This document shows, one piece after another, positions 58,225 through 64,000 of a stretch of 64,000 nucleotides of DNA. A program made the position numbers and the translations under genes. Location: the NCBI GenBank assembly GCA_913061095.1, contig CAJXVM010000005.1, forward strand, positions 62,001 to 126,000. The letters are read 5' to 3'. Each line of letters opens with the position of its first letter. Within the stretch, counting starts at the first letter, position 1. This DNA is from an uncultured Ignavibacteria bacterium. GTDB lineage: Bacteria > Bacteroidota > Ignavibacteria > SZUA-365. Under the pieces are notes generated by a model. The model had not been told where the DNA came from. It saw only the letters and a program-made list of their open reading frames with translations, and made no database searches.

Positions 58225-59505
58225 TCAGCGCCCGGCAACGACCGTGGCAAAACCGACGGCGCGATGGATACCGCCGAATTCGTCGTCATCGTAATAGATG
58301 ATGGCCCAGTAGAGATTGTTGGCTCCCCAGGTGTTACCCGCGATGGAAGTCCAGTCCTGCTCAACCACATATCCCAGTTCTTCATCGTATCGGCCGAGGA
58401 TGTACTGGTAGTCATAGGCTCCACGCAGGAGCATGTGGTCAACAATGTAATGGCCTGTTTCAGCGTCGTATGCAAGCCGGTCTTCGGGCTGTGGATCCCA
58501 GTGATTGAAGATGCCGGCAACAAAGACGTCCCGGTTTTTCATGAACGGATGCTCCAGTTCGAAACGCACGCAGAGATACTCGGCATCAAACGAGCGAAGT
58601 GGCGGCGTTTCCGCGGCACCGTAGTATCGGCTGGCATCCGCGCCGAAACGGTATCGGGTAAAATCCGGTCCCTCGAACTTGGTGGCGAGGTGCTGTTCAG
58701 GATACACGGCCGGTCTGCGTAGATCATAAAGACGGTAACCGTTGCCCGGCAACACATTCTCATACGTGAATGTCTTCTCCCTCAGCCCGATGCCTTCGAC
58801 GAAAGTATTGGGTTGGCGATCGTAGCTGTCGACGCGGTACTGCCTGTACAGGTTGAAATTCTTGTAGAAATCGACGGAGCGAACGTAATCAGCAAAAAGT
58901 GCGTCGGGGACGCGTATCTGGAGCCGCAGGCGGTGAACCTCGTCCAGCGGAGGATTGTAGTCCGTCCAGTAGTCATTCGTCACACGCAGATTGCTGCGAA
59001 CGATATTCTCCACGACGATGAATCGTCCGGAGGCATATATGTTTTCCTCGTCGTTTTCATCGACGATGTCGAAGATCCAGTTACCCGAATAGAGAAAGCG
59101 CACGAAGGAGTGCTGTTCACTCGGGAATGTGTTGATGAAGCGCCAACGGTAGTGCTGCACACCGGTTGGGGCGTGCTCGTAAAACAGCTCCCGGGTATAG
59201 GTGAAAAAATCATCACGCACGAAAAAATCCGTGTCGATATTCCAATCCTTGTCACAATGATGGAAGCGAATCATCAGCCGCGGTGGCATGTCCTCATTGA
59301 CATCGAAGCGGATCGTGATTCTTGTCGGTAGCGAGGTTTCAGCTGCTGACCGGGCGGTATCCGTTTTCACAATAACGGGCAGATTTGTTTCATCGCTCCC
59401 GCCATATACACGCAGTCCGCGAATAAACGGCATTTCCGGGCAGGGATTCTGGGCAAGCAGGGCGACAGGAAGGAGGAGAAATGTCAGCAGGGATGAAATC
59501 TTCAT
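58225..59505 (-). CDS. DUF5103 / T9SS plug-like protein
   Basis: A 426-aa protein with a signal peptide (LLTFLLLPVALLAQ). Its length and segments are typical of DUF5103: IRGLRVYGGSDETNLPVI, LMIRFHHCDKDW, FTYTRELFYEHAPTGVQHYRWRF and FVAGIFNHWDPQPEDRLAYD. DUF5103 includes the Plug subunit that closes the periplasmic side of the SprA translocon in the type IX system. That assignment agrees with the T9SS cargo seen elsewhere in the window. It precedes the flippase by 57 bp. A role as a free-standing envelope protein cannot be excluded. Confidence 0.88.
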   Translation of the reverse strand: MKISSLLTFLLLPVALLAQNPCPEMPFIRGLRVYGGSDETNLPVIVKTDTARSAAETSLPTRITIRFDVNEDMPPRLMIRFHHCDKDWNIDTDFFVRDDFFTYTRELFYEHAPTGVQHYRWRFINTFPSEQHSFVRFLYSGNWIFDIVDENDEENIYASGRFIVVENIVRSNLRVTNDYWTDYNPPLDEVHRLRLQIRVPDALFADYVRSVDFYKNFNLYRQYRVDSYDRQPNTFVEGIGLREKTFTYENVLPGNGYRLYDLRRPAVYPEQHLATKFEGPDFTRYRFGADASRYYGAAETPPLRSFDAEYLCVRFELEHPFMKNRDVFVAGIFNHWDPQPEDRLAYDAETGHYIVDHMLLRGAYDYQYILGRYDEELGYVVEQDWTSIAGNTWGANNLYWAIIYYDDDEFGGIHRAVGFATVVAGR

Positions 59506-60356: not shown

Positions 60357-60785
60357 ATGGAAACCGTGAATGCAGCCATTTCCAATCGTACTGTTACCCA
60401 GGACCTGAATGTCGATGCCCCCGTCGCCCCCGTTGCACCGGCACAGCCGGAAGTGCGCGAGCGCAGGCGTCCGGTGTTCACCGGACTCGAGGATCACACG
60501 ATTTCGATCGACGATGCCAGCGAGCTGACGCGCAACTACCGCAAGAGCGCCGGCAAAGGCGCGATCAAGGGAGGCTTTTTCGGACGTGCCGCCATCGAGC
60601 AGGTGCTCGCGCAGGAAGGTGTGGTCGGTATCCGGTACTACTACGCGCAGGAGAATAACGGTCGTCCCGTGCTGATCCTCGTCGGTGTCGATGAGAACGG
60701 CCGCGACCTGATCGACGGATTCGTCGCCGAGCGCGCAATGCCCTGTCCGCCGTTCTGCGACATCTGGAATCCCCTCAACAGCTGA
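60357..60785 (+). CDS. Unassigned ~142-aa paralogue 1 (triplicated family)
   Basis: A 142-aa soluble protein preceded by AAGGAG. Residues 1-15 are unique; then comes a Pro/Ala-rich linker (DLNVDAPVAPVAPAQPEV), a basic motif RERRRPVFTG and a globular domain of about 95 residues: DHTISIDDASELTRNYRKS, GFFGRAAIEQVLAQEGVVGI, RYYYAQENNGRPVLILVGVD. The C-terminal signature is PCPPFCDIWNPLNS. There is no signal peptide or membrane segment. I recall short Bacteroidota proteins ending in a similar CP-x-C...PL tail but cannot name a function. From residue 16 it is almost identical in DNA to paralogue 2. Confidence 0.85.
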   Translation: METVNAAISNRTVTQDLNVDAPVAPVAPAQPEVRERRRPVFTGLEDHTISIDDASELTRNYRKSAGKGAIKGGFFGRAAIEQVLAQEGVVGIRYYYAQENNGRPVLILVGVDENGRDLIDGFVAERAMPCPPFCDIWNPLNS

Positions 60786-60787
60786 GC
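60402..60787 (+). repeat. 386-bp near-identical repeat, copy 1
   Basis: 60402-60787 matches 60959-61344 with two differences that I can find (60404 C/T, and T/C in the Val codon of the PVAPVAP linker). The repeat starts at codon 16 of the gene and ends two bases after the stop. The first 15 codons and the flanks are unrelated, so the boundary is sharp on both sides. Confidence 0.95.
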
Positions 60788-60913
60788 CCGGATCCGGAGA
60801 AACGGCCGGCGTACGGAGAACGCCGACCGGTCAGAGGAGACCCCCGTTCGACCCAGATAAAAAACACAGTGAATGCAGCCTTTTCAGGAAACAGTGAATT
60901 ACAGGAGAAAAAC

Positions 60914-61342
60914 ATGAAGACCCAGGAAACCACGCTGACCGTCAATGCCCCCGTCAAAGATCTGAATGTCGATGCCCCCGTCGCCCCCGTCGCACCGGCA
61001 CAGCCGGAAGTGCGCGAGCGCAGGCGTCCGGTGTTCACCGGACTCGAGGATCACACGATTTCGATCGACGATGCCAGCGAGCTGACGCGCAACTACCGCA
61101 AGAGCGCCGGCAAAGGCGCGATCAAGGGAGGCTTTTTCGGACGTGCCGCCATCGAGCAGGTGCTCGCGCAGGAAGGTGTGGTCGGTATCCGGTACTACTA
61201 CGCGCAGGAGAATAACGGTCGTCCCGTGCTGATCCTCGTCGGTGTCGATGAGAACGGCCGCGACCTGATCGACGGATTCGTCGCCGAGCGCGCAATGCCC
61301 TGTCCGCCGTTCTGCGACATCTGGAATCCCCTCAACAGCTGA
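60914..61342 (+). CDS. Unassigned ~142-aa paralogue 2 (triplicated family)
   Basis: A 142-aa protein identical to paralogue 1 from residue 16 to the end, with a different N-terminus (MKTQETTLTVNAPVK). AGGAG at 60903-60907 sets the ATG at 60914, although the frame is open back to 60869. The spacer from gene 1 (128 bp) is unrelated to that before gene 3. The identical core with an exchanged N-terminal peptide suggests recent duplication or gene conversion limited to the functional domain, with the N-terminus free to vary or under selection to differ. It probably shares a transcript with both neighbours. Confidence 0.85.
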   Translation: MKTQETTLTVNAPVKDLNVDAPVAPVAPAQPEVRERRRPVFTGLEDHTISIDDASELTRNYRKSAGKGAIKGGFFGRAAIEQVLAQEGVVGIRYYYAQENNGRPVLILVGVDENGRDLIDGFVAERAMPCPPFCDIWNPLNS

Positions 61343-61344
61343 GC
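60959..61344 (+). repeat. 386-bp near-identical repeat, copy 2
   Basis: Second copy of the 60402-60787 segment, offset by 557 bp, within paralogue 2. Synonymous divergence is almost nil, so the two copies are very young or are kept alike by conversion. Confidence 0.95.
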
Positions 61345-61392
61345 AGCGACAGAAACGAGTACAGAGTTATTTTCACGTGATATTTCAAAGGT

Positions 61393-61824
61393 ATGACATC
61401 AATGAATGATCAGAACAAGACACAGGCGACTCAGACGAACGACACGCGCACGCTGAACCAGGACATGCCGATTGCCCCGGTAATGCCTCCTGTTCGCGAG
61501 CGCCGCCGTCCGGTGTTCACCGGTTTCGAAGATCACACGATCACCGTGGAGGAGGCCGGAACACTGACCCGAAATTATCGCATGGCGGCTGGACGCGGTG
61601 CGGTAAAGGGCCGGTACTTCAGTCGAAGCGGTATCGAGCAGCTGCTGATGCAGGAAGACGTCGTCGGAATTCGGTACTACTATGCCGAAGACAGCGAGGG
61701 TCGTCCGCAGATGGTGCTGGTTGGTGTTGATGCCAACGGCAAGGATATGACGGAAGGCTTTGTCATCGGCAACGGTCTGCCGGTTTCGCGGTTCCACGAA
61801 CACGTCAATCCGCTGAACTCGTAG
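61393..61824 (+). CDS. Unassigned 143-aa paralogue 3 (diverged member)
   Basis: A 143-aa protein with the same plan as paralogues 1 and 2 but only about 60 percent like them in the core. Shared blocks are RERRRPVFTG-EDHTI, LTRNYR, VVGIRYYYAED, LVGVDANGKD and the final NPLNS. The C-terminal Cys pair (PCPPFC) is replaced by LPVSRFHEH, so the cysteines are not essential to the whole family. The N-terminus is polar, Thr/Gln-rich, then MPIAPVMPP. The start is at 61393 or 61402. Hairpins follow before the membrane-protein gene. Confidence 0.83.
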   Translation: MTSMNDQNKTQATQTNDTRTLNQDMPIAPVMPPVRERRRPVFTGFEDHTITVEEAGTLTRNYRMAAGRGAVKGRYFSRSGIEQLLMQEDVVGIRYYYAEDSEGRPQMVLVGVDANGKDMTEGFVIGNGLPVSRFHEHVNPLNS

Positions 61825-61832
61825 ATGCCGTT

Positions 61833-61943
61833 GATGCGGTCTGCCCGCATCTTCCGATGGCGACGGGTTTTTGTGAAAGATATGCGGAGTCGTATATTTG
61901 GCTGTACATGAGAGGGTTGTCCTTTTCCGGGACACCCTCCCAT
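61833..61943 (+). promoter_or_regulatory. Two hairpins between paralogue 3 and the membrane-protein gene
   Basis: GATGCGG/CCGCATC (7-bp stem, about 61833-61851) is followed by a T-rich GGGTTTTTG at 61865. A larger imperfect hairpin at 61907-61943 pairs CATGAGAGGGTTGTCC with GGGACACCCTCCCATG. The first could act as a weak terminator, letting the small proteins be made in excess over the membrane protein and kinase; the second could stabilise or attenuate the downstream message. Confidence 0.4.
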
Positions 61944-61975
61944 GTAGGTTGCCATCTTTCCCACCTCATGCAAGG

Positions 61976-62800
61976 ATGACTGTGTTTTCAGCTGTATTCA
62001 GTCAGATCCCTTTTCTTCTGCATAGCCTTCCTGGCGATTTTCAGGTTGCGTTCGGTGCGATTGCCGGTGCTGCTCACGACCTCGGTTTCATGACAAACGC
62101 TGCCGAGAAATTAATCGCCCGCATTGCCTTCTTTTCAGCCTTTACATGTATCATCCCTCTCATCATCGGCGCGAAAAAGTATAGGGAGCTCGATCAGGGT
62201 GCAAGGCTTCTTACGATAAATCTGCTGATCGTACTCTGTGCAGAAATCATCAGCTATATCCTGCTGGTGGGTTATCGAACGTTTGCAATCAGCACGCAGA
62301 TTGTGTACAGCATTTATACCCCGATCGAATTCGTTCTTTTCATCCTCATGTTCAGGCACTGGCATGACGGGAAGACGGTCCGCAAACTTCTGACAATAAG
62401 TATTCCGGTTTTCCTTTTTCTCTGGATCGCCGGTCAGGCCTGGCTTTCATACCAGGGGCAATTCATGGAAGGGCAGGTCGATTTCGCAGACGTCCTGCTT
62501 CCGGTCGAAAGTCTCATCCTGATCATTGTCGCGATCGGAACCCTGATGAAGATCATCAGAGATGAAACAACACCTGTTGTCAGCAGTCCCGTGTTCTGGA
62601 TCACTGCCGCAATTCTGTTCTACTTCACCGGTAATCTGTTCGTTTTCACCTTCCAGAGCATTATCCTGGAAGTATCCGATATGAAGCAGTTCTGGTATCT
62701 CCATTCAACCATGACTTTCGTCAAATACGGATTGTTCGCCGTCGGGCTTTATTTCGCCGGAAAAAAAGCGAAGCAGACTCCCACTCCTCATTCGACCTGA
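61976..62800 (+). CDS. Seven-helix membrane protein of unknown function
   Basis: A protein of about 274 aa with seven predicted membrane helices: IAFFSAFTCIIPLIIGA, LLTINLLIVLCAEIISYILL, IVYSIYTPIEFVLFILMF, LLTISIPVFLFLWIAGQAW, LLPVESLILIIVAIGTLM, VFWITAAILFYFTGNLFVF and TFVKYGLFAVGLYFAG. The C-terminal tail is short and basic. No transporter motif is visible; the layout is that of 7TM sensory or adaptor proteins. The start is uncertain: ATG 61976, GTG 61982 (better spaced from AAGGA) or ATG 62090, at the first helix. It lies between the triplicated family and a histidine kinase on the same strand. Confidence 0.7.
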   Translation: MTVFSAVFSQIPFLLHSLPGDFQVAFGAIAGAAHDLGFMTNAAEKLIARIAFFSAFTCIIPLIIGAKKYRELDQGARLLTINLLIVLCAEIISYILLVGYRTFAISTQIVYSIYTPIEFVLFILMFRHWHDGKTVRKLLTISIPVFLFLWIAGQAWLSYQGQFMEGQVDFADVLLPVESLILIIVAIGTLMKIIRDETTPVVSSPVFWITAAILFYFTGNLFVFTFQSIILEVSDMKQFWYLHSTMTFVKYGLFAVGLYFAGKKAKQTPTPHST

Positions 62801-63000
62801 ACGCTGTTGTGACGTACCGGAATTGCACAGGGCGGAGGTCACCACAGGAATCGGCTATTGAGAAGAAGTATTTTCTTTCCTATTTTGACCGTATGCAGCA
62901 CCATCTCAGGTGTCTTTGTCTTTAGCTCCCGATGAGGCGCCGTGTGCGTGCCGTTTCAGCAACGGCATGAGCGTTCTTTCTGCAACAGACTGCGCAAGAC

Positions 63001-64000
63001 GTGACTGAATTGAATTCCATCTGGCTGGTCATCGTTCTCGGAACGGTTGTCCTTCTGAGCCTCGCCGTGGGAATCATCGCGATCATTATTTTCCAGCAGC
63101 GGAAAATGTTCGCGATGCAGCAGAAGAACCTCGAGCAGCTCGCCGAAAGCGAGAAACGCTATCGGCGCCTGGTGAAGCTTTCCCCGTTGCCCATGGTCGT
63201 CGCCATCGCCGAGCGCATCGTCTATGTGAACGATGCGGGGATCAAACTCTTCAGCGCTTCCGGGGAGGACGAAGTCTACCAACGCTCCCTTTACGAGTAT
63301 CTCACCACCGATTTCGAGCACCCGGAGCAGAACCGCTTCCCGGCCATGCTCGAGCGCGAGGAGGAACTCTACAATGTCAAGGGACAACTGGAAAAGCTGG
63401 ACGGCCAGATCATTGACATCGAGCTGACCGCCATCAACATTTCTTTCGATGAACAGGAAGCGAAGCACATCGTTCTGCGCGATATCACGCAGGAAGAGCG
63501 GCACAAGGCTGAGCTGATTGCCGCAAAGGAGCGTGCCGAGCAGTCCGACAAGCTGAAGGACGCCTTCATCGCGAATATTTCCCATGAGATTCGCACGCCG
63601 CTGCATATCATTATCGGGTACAGCAACCTGATTACCAATGAACTGGTCGGCAACCTGTACCCGGAAATGGAATCCTACTTCCAGGCGATACGGCGCGGCA
63701 GCCAGCGCCTGATGCGCACGGTCGAGCATATCCTGAATATCTCCAGCATCCAGGTCGGCACGTTCTCCGTTCGACCCGAGGAAATCCGCGTTTCGGATCG
63801 CGTTGCGGAACTGGTTCATGAGATGACCTCGCTCGCGAAGAAAAAGGGTCTCGAGCTCACGTTTACTTCCGAATGTCCCGCGGCCATTCTCTATGCCGAC
63901 CGCTACTGCATCGATCAGGCCGTGTCAAACGTTATCGACAACGCGATCAAGTTCACCAAGAAAGGTGAGGTCAGCACACGCGTCTACTGCGTTGACCGCC
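63001..64000 (+). CDS. Sensor histidine kinase with PAS domain (cut by the right edge)
   Basis: The first 333 residues are visible. One N-terminal helix (WLVIVLGTVVLLSLAVGIIAIIIF) is followed by a coiled coil and a PAS domain (about 52-170; RYRRLVKLSPLPMVVAIAERIVYVNDAG). A linker and the dimerisation domain follow, with phospho-acceptor His in FIANISHEIRTPL and the start of the ATPase domain (NVIDNAIKFTKKG, N box). The G boxes lie beyond the window. The start is GTG 63001, since the frame is closed at 62968-62970 and no ATG precedes the membrane helix. There is a 200-bp gap from the 7TM gene; a 13-codon frame (62967-63008) overlaps the start and could be a leader. Confidence 0.9.
   Translation, partial: MTELNSIWLVIVLGTVVLLSLAVGIIAIIIFQQRKMFAMQQKNLEQLAESEKRYRRLVKLSPLPMVVAIAERIVYVNDAGIKLFSASGEDEVYQRSLYEYLTTDFEHPEQNRFPAMLEREEELYNVKGQLEKLDGQIIDIELTAINISFDEQEAKHIVLRDITQEERHKAELIAAKERAEQSDKLKDAFIANISHEIRTPLHIIIGYSNLITNELVGNLYPEMESYFQAIRRGSQRLMRTVEHILNISSIQVGTFSVRPEEIRVSDRVAELVHEMTSLAKKKGLELTFTSECPAAILYADRYCIDQAVSNVIDNAIKFTKKGEVSTRVYCVDR

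Follow-up and report, generated by a model that had tools for sequence, protein, structure and literature searches.

The window, a stretch of 64,000 nucleotides from an uncultured Ignavibacteria bacterium, carries five genes on the + strand in the order SP1, SP2, SP3, 7TM and PAS histidine kinase (HK), where SP denotes a small protein and 7TM a seven-helix membrane protein. The five co-directional genes that the original prediction had listed, three tandem small-protein genes with a 7TM and a PAS kinase gene, are all present:

60357-60785, + strand: SP1 (copy A1), 142 aa; core at residues 41-142, with an FTGxEDHxI start, CPPFC and an NPLNS end
60405-60787, + strand: tract shared with 60962-61344 (383 bp, 1 mismatch)
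60914-61342, + strand: SP2 (copy A2), 142 aa; core identical to that of A1
61393 or 61402 to 61824, + strand: SP3 (copy B), diverged; CPPFC replaced by VSRFH
61976-62800, + strand: 7TM protein; start codon uncertain (ATG 61976, possibly 62091)
63001-64000, + strand: histidine kinase, start GTG 63001; runs beyond the window edge

The start of SP2 is placed at an ATG following AGGAG, and a longer ORF from GTG 60869 is less likely. In the host contig the kinase gene ends at G000:C5:126704 and encodes 567 aa in full (L034:7001-8704). Because the intergenic gaps up to the kinase measure 151 and 200 bp, co-transcription in the window is left open; a scan of the window alone for promoter- and terminator-like sequences gave no more matches than chance. 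Upstream of the SP array, on the opposite strand, lies a gene for a type IX secretion plug protein (58225-59505, -), and such a gene, identified by sequence, also adjoins the SP array of a single-contig relative (L140).

The small-protein genes had been described as three paralogues. Their kinship indeed exceeds chance, but they are really two homogenised A copies and one diverged B copy. SP1 and SP2 agree at all but one of 383 bp although their 5' ends and spacers differ, which, as far as sequence alone can tell, points to gene conversion or a recent duplication, while SP3 has 58% identity to SP1/SP2 over the 102-aa core. Close relatives keep the same order, A(n)-B-7TM-kinase, with two to four near-identical A copies and one diverged B copy, which is single and always the last before the 7TM gene. 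Within a genome, core DNA identity among A copies is 100% in two genomes, 98.7-99.7% in a third and 88.6% in a fourth, whereas the median between genomes is 79%; judging by these identities, the A copies are held alike by gene conversion or repeated duplication. The multiplied, homogenised copies suggest, by inference, that SP dose matters. SP copies in tandem are special to the window clade and do not characterise the system as a whole, and the RERRRPVFTG motif named in the original prediction is real but confined to this clade, where it also appears as RERTRPVFTG. In the single-contig relative (G008, L140:5163-7566) the array comprises four A copies, one of them frameshifted and the other three intact, and a single B copy.

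Sequence and predicted structure of SP and 7TM

SP relatives in most lineages have only about 104 aa, begin directly with MxFTGxEDHxI and end with CPPxCxxxNPLNS. The NPLNS end, put forward earlier as common to the small proteins, is conserved far beyond the window clade, as is the FTGxEDHxI start of the domain. Q86, G91 and Y95 are invariant in the family, and the C-terminal CPxxC...NPLNS tail is conserved up to its final residues. AlphaFold2 modelled SP (pLDDT 83, pTM 0.64) as a compact alpha/beta domain that begins near residue 45; the C-terminal tail is packed, not free. Since SP is soluble without a signal peptide in most loci and a lipoprotein or signal-bearing protein in others, its side of the membrane is unclear. 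Two loci contain one ORF that fuses two SP domains (L068:5518-6306 and L124:2935-3684).

None of 64 SP relatives scored above the cut-off against Pfam or NCBIfam, and SP and 7TM together gave nothing above the cut-off in Pfam, NCBIfam and PADLOC. A clear match to a known family with an unrelated role would have spoken against the original prediction, and no family match was found in Pfam or NCBIfam for either protein. PDB sequence searches found no relative of SP, and nothing in the PDB matched its modelled fold credibly (Foldseek E 0.38 and Z 3.5 at best). We rejected DUF5501, a chance-level match to the low-complexity N-terminus (E 0.023), and CopG as a fold relative (Z 3.5 over 51 residues, not credible). 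Searches of plasmids by tblastn returned no match. A role in anti-phage defence was also set aside, as there was no PADLOC match and no defence neighbours were seen.

The conserved cysteines and histidine of SP raise the question of a cytoplasmic redox or metal sensor, in which CPxxC and the His of EDH would bind metal or form a disulphide and the change would be relayed via 7TM and kinase. The Cys residues of CPxxC are conserved in 81-83% of the family, the His in 72% and a third Cys (QxxCVG) in 70%, in keeping with such a role. However, B copies and several lipoprotein versions lack the cysteines while the operon is kept, and no known metal protein matched the fold above Z 3.5, which makes this explanation highly unlikely.

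For the membrane protein, the seven helices originally proposed were confirmed by AlphaFold2 (pLDDT 88, pTM 0.82). Its predicted topology is N-out/C-in, with N-out given by the positive-inside rule in 50/50 sequences, and no Pfam or NCBIfam family was above the cut-off for any of 50 relatives. The best fold matches were to designed GPCR-like folds, to GPCRs and to microbial rhodopsins (Z 12-15; Foldseek best E 0.018); the top score was Z 14.9, for a designed fold, and a class T GPCR reached Z 13.4. On the evidence of the model, this likeness shows seven-helix topology but does not establish kinship, since Z values of 12-15 are usual for helical bundles. No sequence relation to a solved GPCR was detected, a 50-sequence profile having no PDB match at E up to 1. 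A microbial rhodopsin identity was rejected: the seven-helix bundle is present, but the conserved TM7 lysine of the retinal Schiff base is missing, with Lys reaching at most 22% in any TM7 column and that column lying at the helix end. The conserved 7TM columns include no Cys or His. At L125:2891-5702 and L129:3013-5728, one SP gene is followed by three tandem 7TM genes.

Conservation of the gene order and make-up of the kinases

Within the window alone, the link between these genes rests only on gene order, which would also be compatible with chance or ordinary adjacency of unrelated genes. We therefore turn to other genomes. In 198 evenly sampled Bacteroidota genomes (completeness at least 90%), SP was found in 21 genomes and 7TM in 44, and 28/28 SP places outside the window's genome had a same-strand 7TM gene directly downstream. 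A scan of named genomes yielded 58 SP loci in MAGs and isolates, spanning Bacteroidota, Ignavibacteria, Calditrichota, Neomarinimicrobiota, Zixibacteria and Eisenbacteria. With the order kept at every sampled place and across several phyla, mere adjacency can be dismissed for practical purposes; the system is real and much wider than the window. Whether SP, 7TM and a histidine kinase stay together in several lineages had been set beforehand as the check on the original prediction, and this check was passed; the outcome that would have refuted it, SP homologues occurring mostly without 7TM or kinase genes, does not hold.

The recurrent order in the 58 named loci is SP-7TM-HK-response regulator, with genes often overlapping. 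Counting the named loci and the window, SP is followed by 7TM 54 times, 7TM by a kinase 46 times (38 separate and 8 fused to a receiver), and the kinase by a separate regulator 36 times. Over all fetched loci, the median gap was 11 nt at 74 SP-7TM junctions, -22 nt at 82 7TM-HK junctions and -4 nt at 65 junctions between kinase and receiver (REC). Where a locus has no 7TM, SP either sits at a contig end, or a few dozen bases from it at most, or belongs to a truncated array, except in two MAGs from Calditrichota and Eisenbacteria (L070 and L076), where no 7TM was found in the remaining 300-340 bp of the contig. In the Eisenbacteria locus a signal-peptide protein follows SP instead of 7TM (L076:3786-4562), a possible exception.

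The window kinase is a hybrid, with one N-terminal membrane helix followed by PAS, HisKA, HATPase_c and a C-terminal receiver. HATPase_c was identified in 43/45 kinases, HisKA_3 in 34/45 and HisKA in 10/45, and the regulators carry a LuxR-type GerE domain in 33/36 cases. The receiver is encoded in the same operon or, as in the window clade, in the same protein as the kinase. By its domain make-up the SP-7TM operon is a two-component system, in which phosphotransfer itself is inferred. Of the kinases, 59/62 have a single hydrophobic segment that starts no more than about 40 residues from the N-terminus, with no further helix, and so lack an extracytoplasmic sensor domain. At L091:8510-10366, in Neomarinimicrobiota, a gene for a phage tail sheath-like protein follows the kinase gene.

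Variation at the SP slot and proposed mechanism

We examined 20 7TM places without a recognised SP and found a small gene immediately upstream at 18 of them and a downstream kinase at 19. The upstream genes often encode lipobox lipoproteins, usually with a CPxxC or PP tail. One group consists of distant SP homologues (profile score 36.3 vs at most 21.2 in 200 column-shuffled controls), while a second has only a C-terminal CPP in common with SP. The SP slot is accordingly filled either way, by a soluble SP in some lineages and by lipoprotein or exported proteins in others, and this mixture is the main puzzle for any mechanism.

Two Hymenobacter loci (L092, L093) carry a duplication of the whole SP-7TM pair, and in a Zixibacteria MAG (L077:6001-8755) SP-7TM is kept while a one-helix protein with PAS and LuxR-HTH replaces the kinase. 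Pairwise divergence of SP correlates with that of 7TM at a partial r of 0.36 (bootstrap 0.20-0.51), with that of the kinase at 0.21 and with that of the regulator at -0.28; the value for kinase versus regulator is 0.73. The SP-7TM signal is modest, exceeding SP-kinase in only 84% of bootstraps, and shared history is not fully controlled. Taken together, the co-divergence, the paired duplication and the Zixibacteria swap point to SP-7TM as an input unit with an exchangeable output.

We consider it probable, though far from settled, that SP and 7TM of the conserved SP-7TM-HK-response regulator operon form the input module of a two-component pathway, with SP acting on 7TM; the contacts and the direction of the signal are inferred. 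7TM would be the membrane receptor or transducer for the kinase and would supply the receptor that the kinase, with one short helix and no outside domain, lacks. SP may serve as a dedicated partner that binds 7TM and sets its state, probably through its folded alpha/beta domain and the CPxxC/PP tail, whose role, like the contact itself, is inferred; it could be a ligand-carrying sensor subunit or a stoichiometric modulator. 7TM would then relay to the kinase within the membrane by a presumed contact, and the kinase would phosphorylate the LuxR-type response regulator or, in the window clade, signal through the receiver fused to it in place of a separate regulator. This mechanism is the best fit to the observed gene order, conservation and domain make-up and to the predicted topology; it is inferred from anatomy, and there is no direct evidence of contact or function. 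The reading of the locus as a signalling module is supported, whereas whether SP is the signal of a receptor/signal pair, as also suggested in the original prediction, is not settled.

The relation could run the other way, with SP as a product or target of the pathway: 7TM, kinase and regulator would sense something else and mainly control SP as an abundant effector. The place of SP as first gene fits this, and the near-identical A copies with one diverged copy in the window clade are as expected for a highly expressed product. Most lineages, however, have a single SP gene tightly packed or overlapping with 7TM, SP is duplicated along with 7TM in Hymenobacter, and its divergence follows 7TM and not the regulator, so that we find this rather unlikely.

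The tail conserved to its final residues, the homologous versions that are lipoproteins or bear signal peptides, and an order of small protein, membrane protein, kinase and regulator that resembles agr would all suit a secreted protein signal, a pheromone with an active tail for which 7TM is receptor or exporter. Against this, a signal peptide is absent from most SPs, the model places the tail inside the folded domain and does not show it as a flexible leader, and 7TM lacks a conserved Cys/His pair of the AgrB kind; we judge it improbable.

Returning to SP and 7TM as the input module, we raise only tentatively, as a possibility that we doubt, a split GPCR-shaped receptor with its own encoded protein ligand or co-receptor. 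The SP domain and tail would act on the free-standing 7TM, which would switch the separate kinase, with SP cytosolic in some lineages and a periplasmic lipoprotein in others.

Comparison with known signalling systems

We found no description of the SP-7TM module in the open-access literature, subscription papers not being covered, and the operon is apparently undescribed: a new variety of two-component system whose input side comprises two unclassified families. Tying SP and 7TM to kinase-regulator pairs across Bacteroidota and neighbouring phyla would give a function class to many 'hypothetical proteins' and explain where a large set of kinases that lack sensor domains get their input, in a bacterial system whose seven-helix receptor and kinase are separate genes. 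The system has members in named strains of Hymenobacter, Chitinophaga and Mucilaginibacter, which are presumably cultured, and this makes the idea testable.

The agr operon likewise encodes a small protein, a polytopic membrane protein, a kinase and a regulator. AgrD, however, is a short precursor peptide and AgrB functions as a cysteine protease; SP, by contrast, forms a folded domain of some 100 aa, and a catalytic Cys/His pair is not conserved in 7TM. In 7TMR-DISM and MASE proteins, multi-helix membrane domains fused to an output domain feed signalling enzymes; the corresponding Pfam models matched none of 50 7TM sequences. With GPCRs and microbial rhodopsins 7TM shares seven-helix topology, but neither sequence similarity nor the TM7 retinal lysine.

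The UhpC-UhpB-UhpA system of E. coli, whose regulator is of the LuxR/NarL type, is alike in that the stimulus is sensed by a membrane protein distinct from the membrane kinase that it drives. UhpC contacts UhpB, which has eight predicted helices (PMC7607045). Unlike 7TM, UhpC is an MFS transporter homologue, and Uhp has no small-protein partner. Such a partner sets kinase activity in the case of MgrB, a 47-aa membrane protein that acts directly on the kinase PhoQ (PMC10576120, PMC8404706), whereas SP is a folded domain, soluble or lipidated, whose gene lies beside that for 7TM. In the LytS-type BtsS, a seven-helix receptor is coupled to a kinase (PMC10653868), but receptor and kinase are one protein there, while the SP operon encodes them as separate genes, with a different 7TM family and the added SP.
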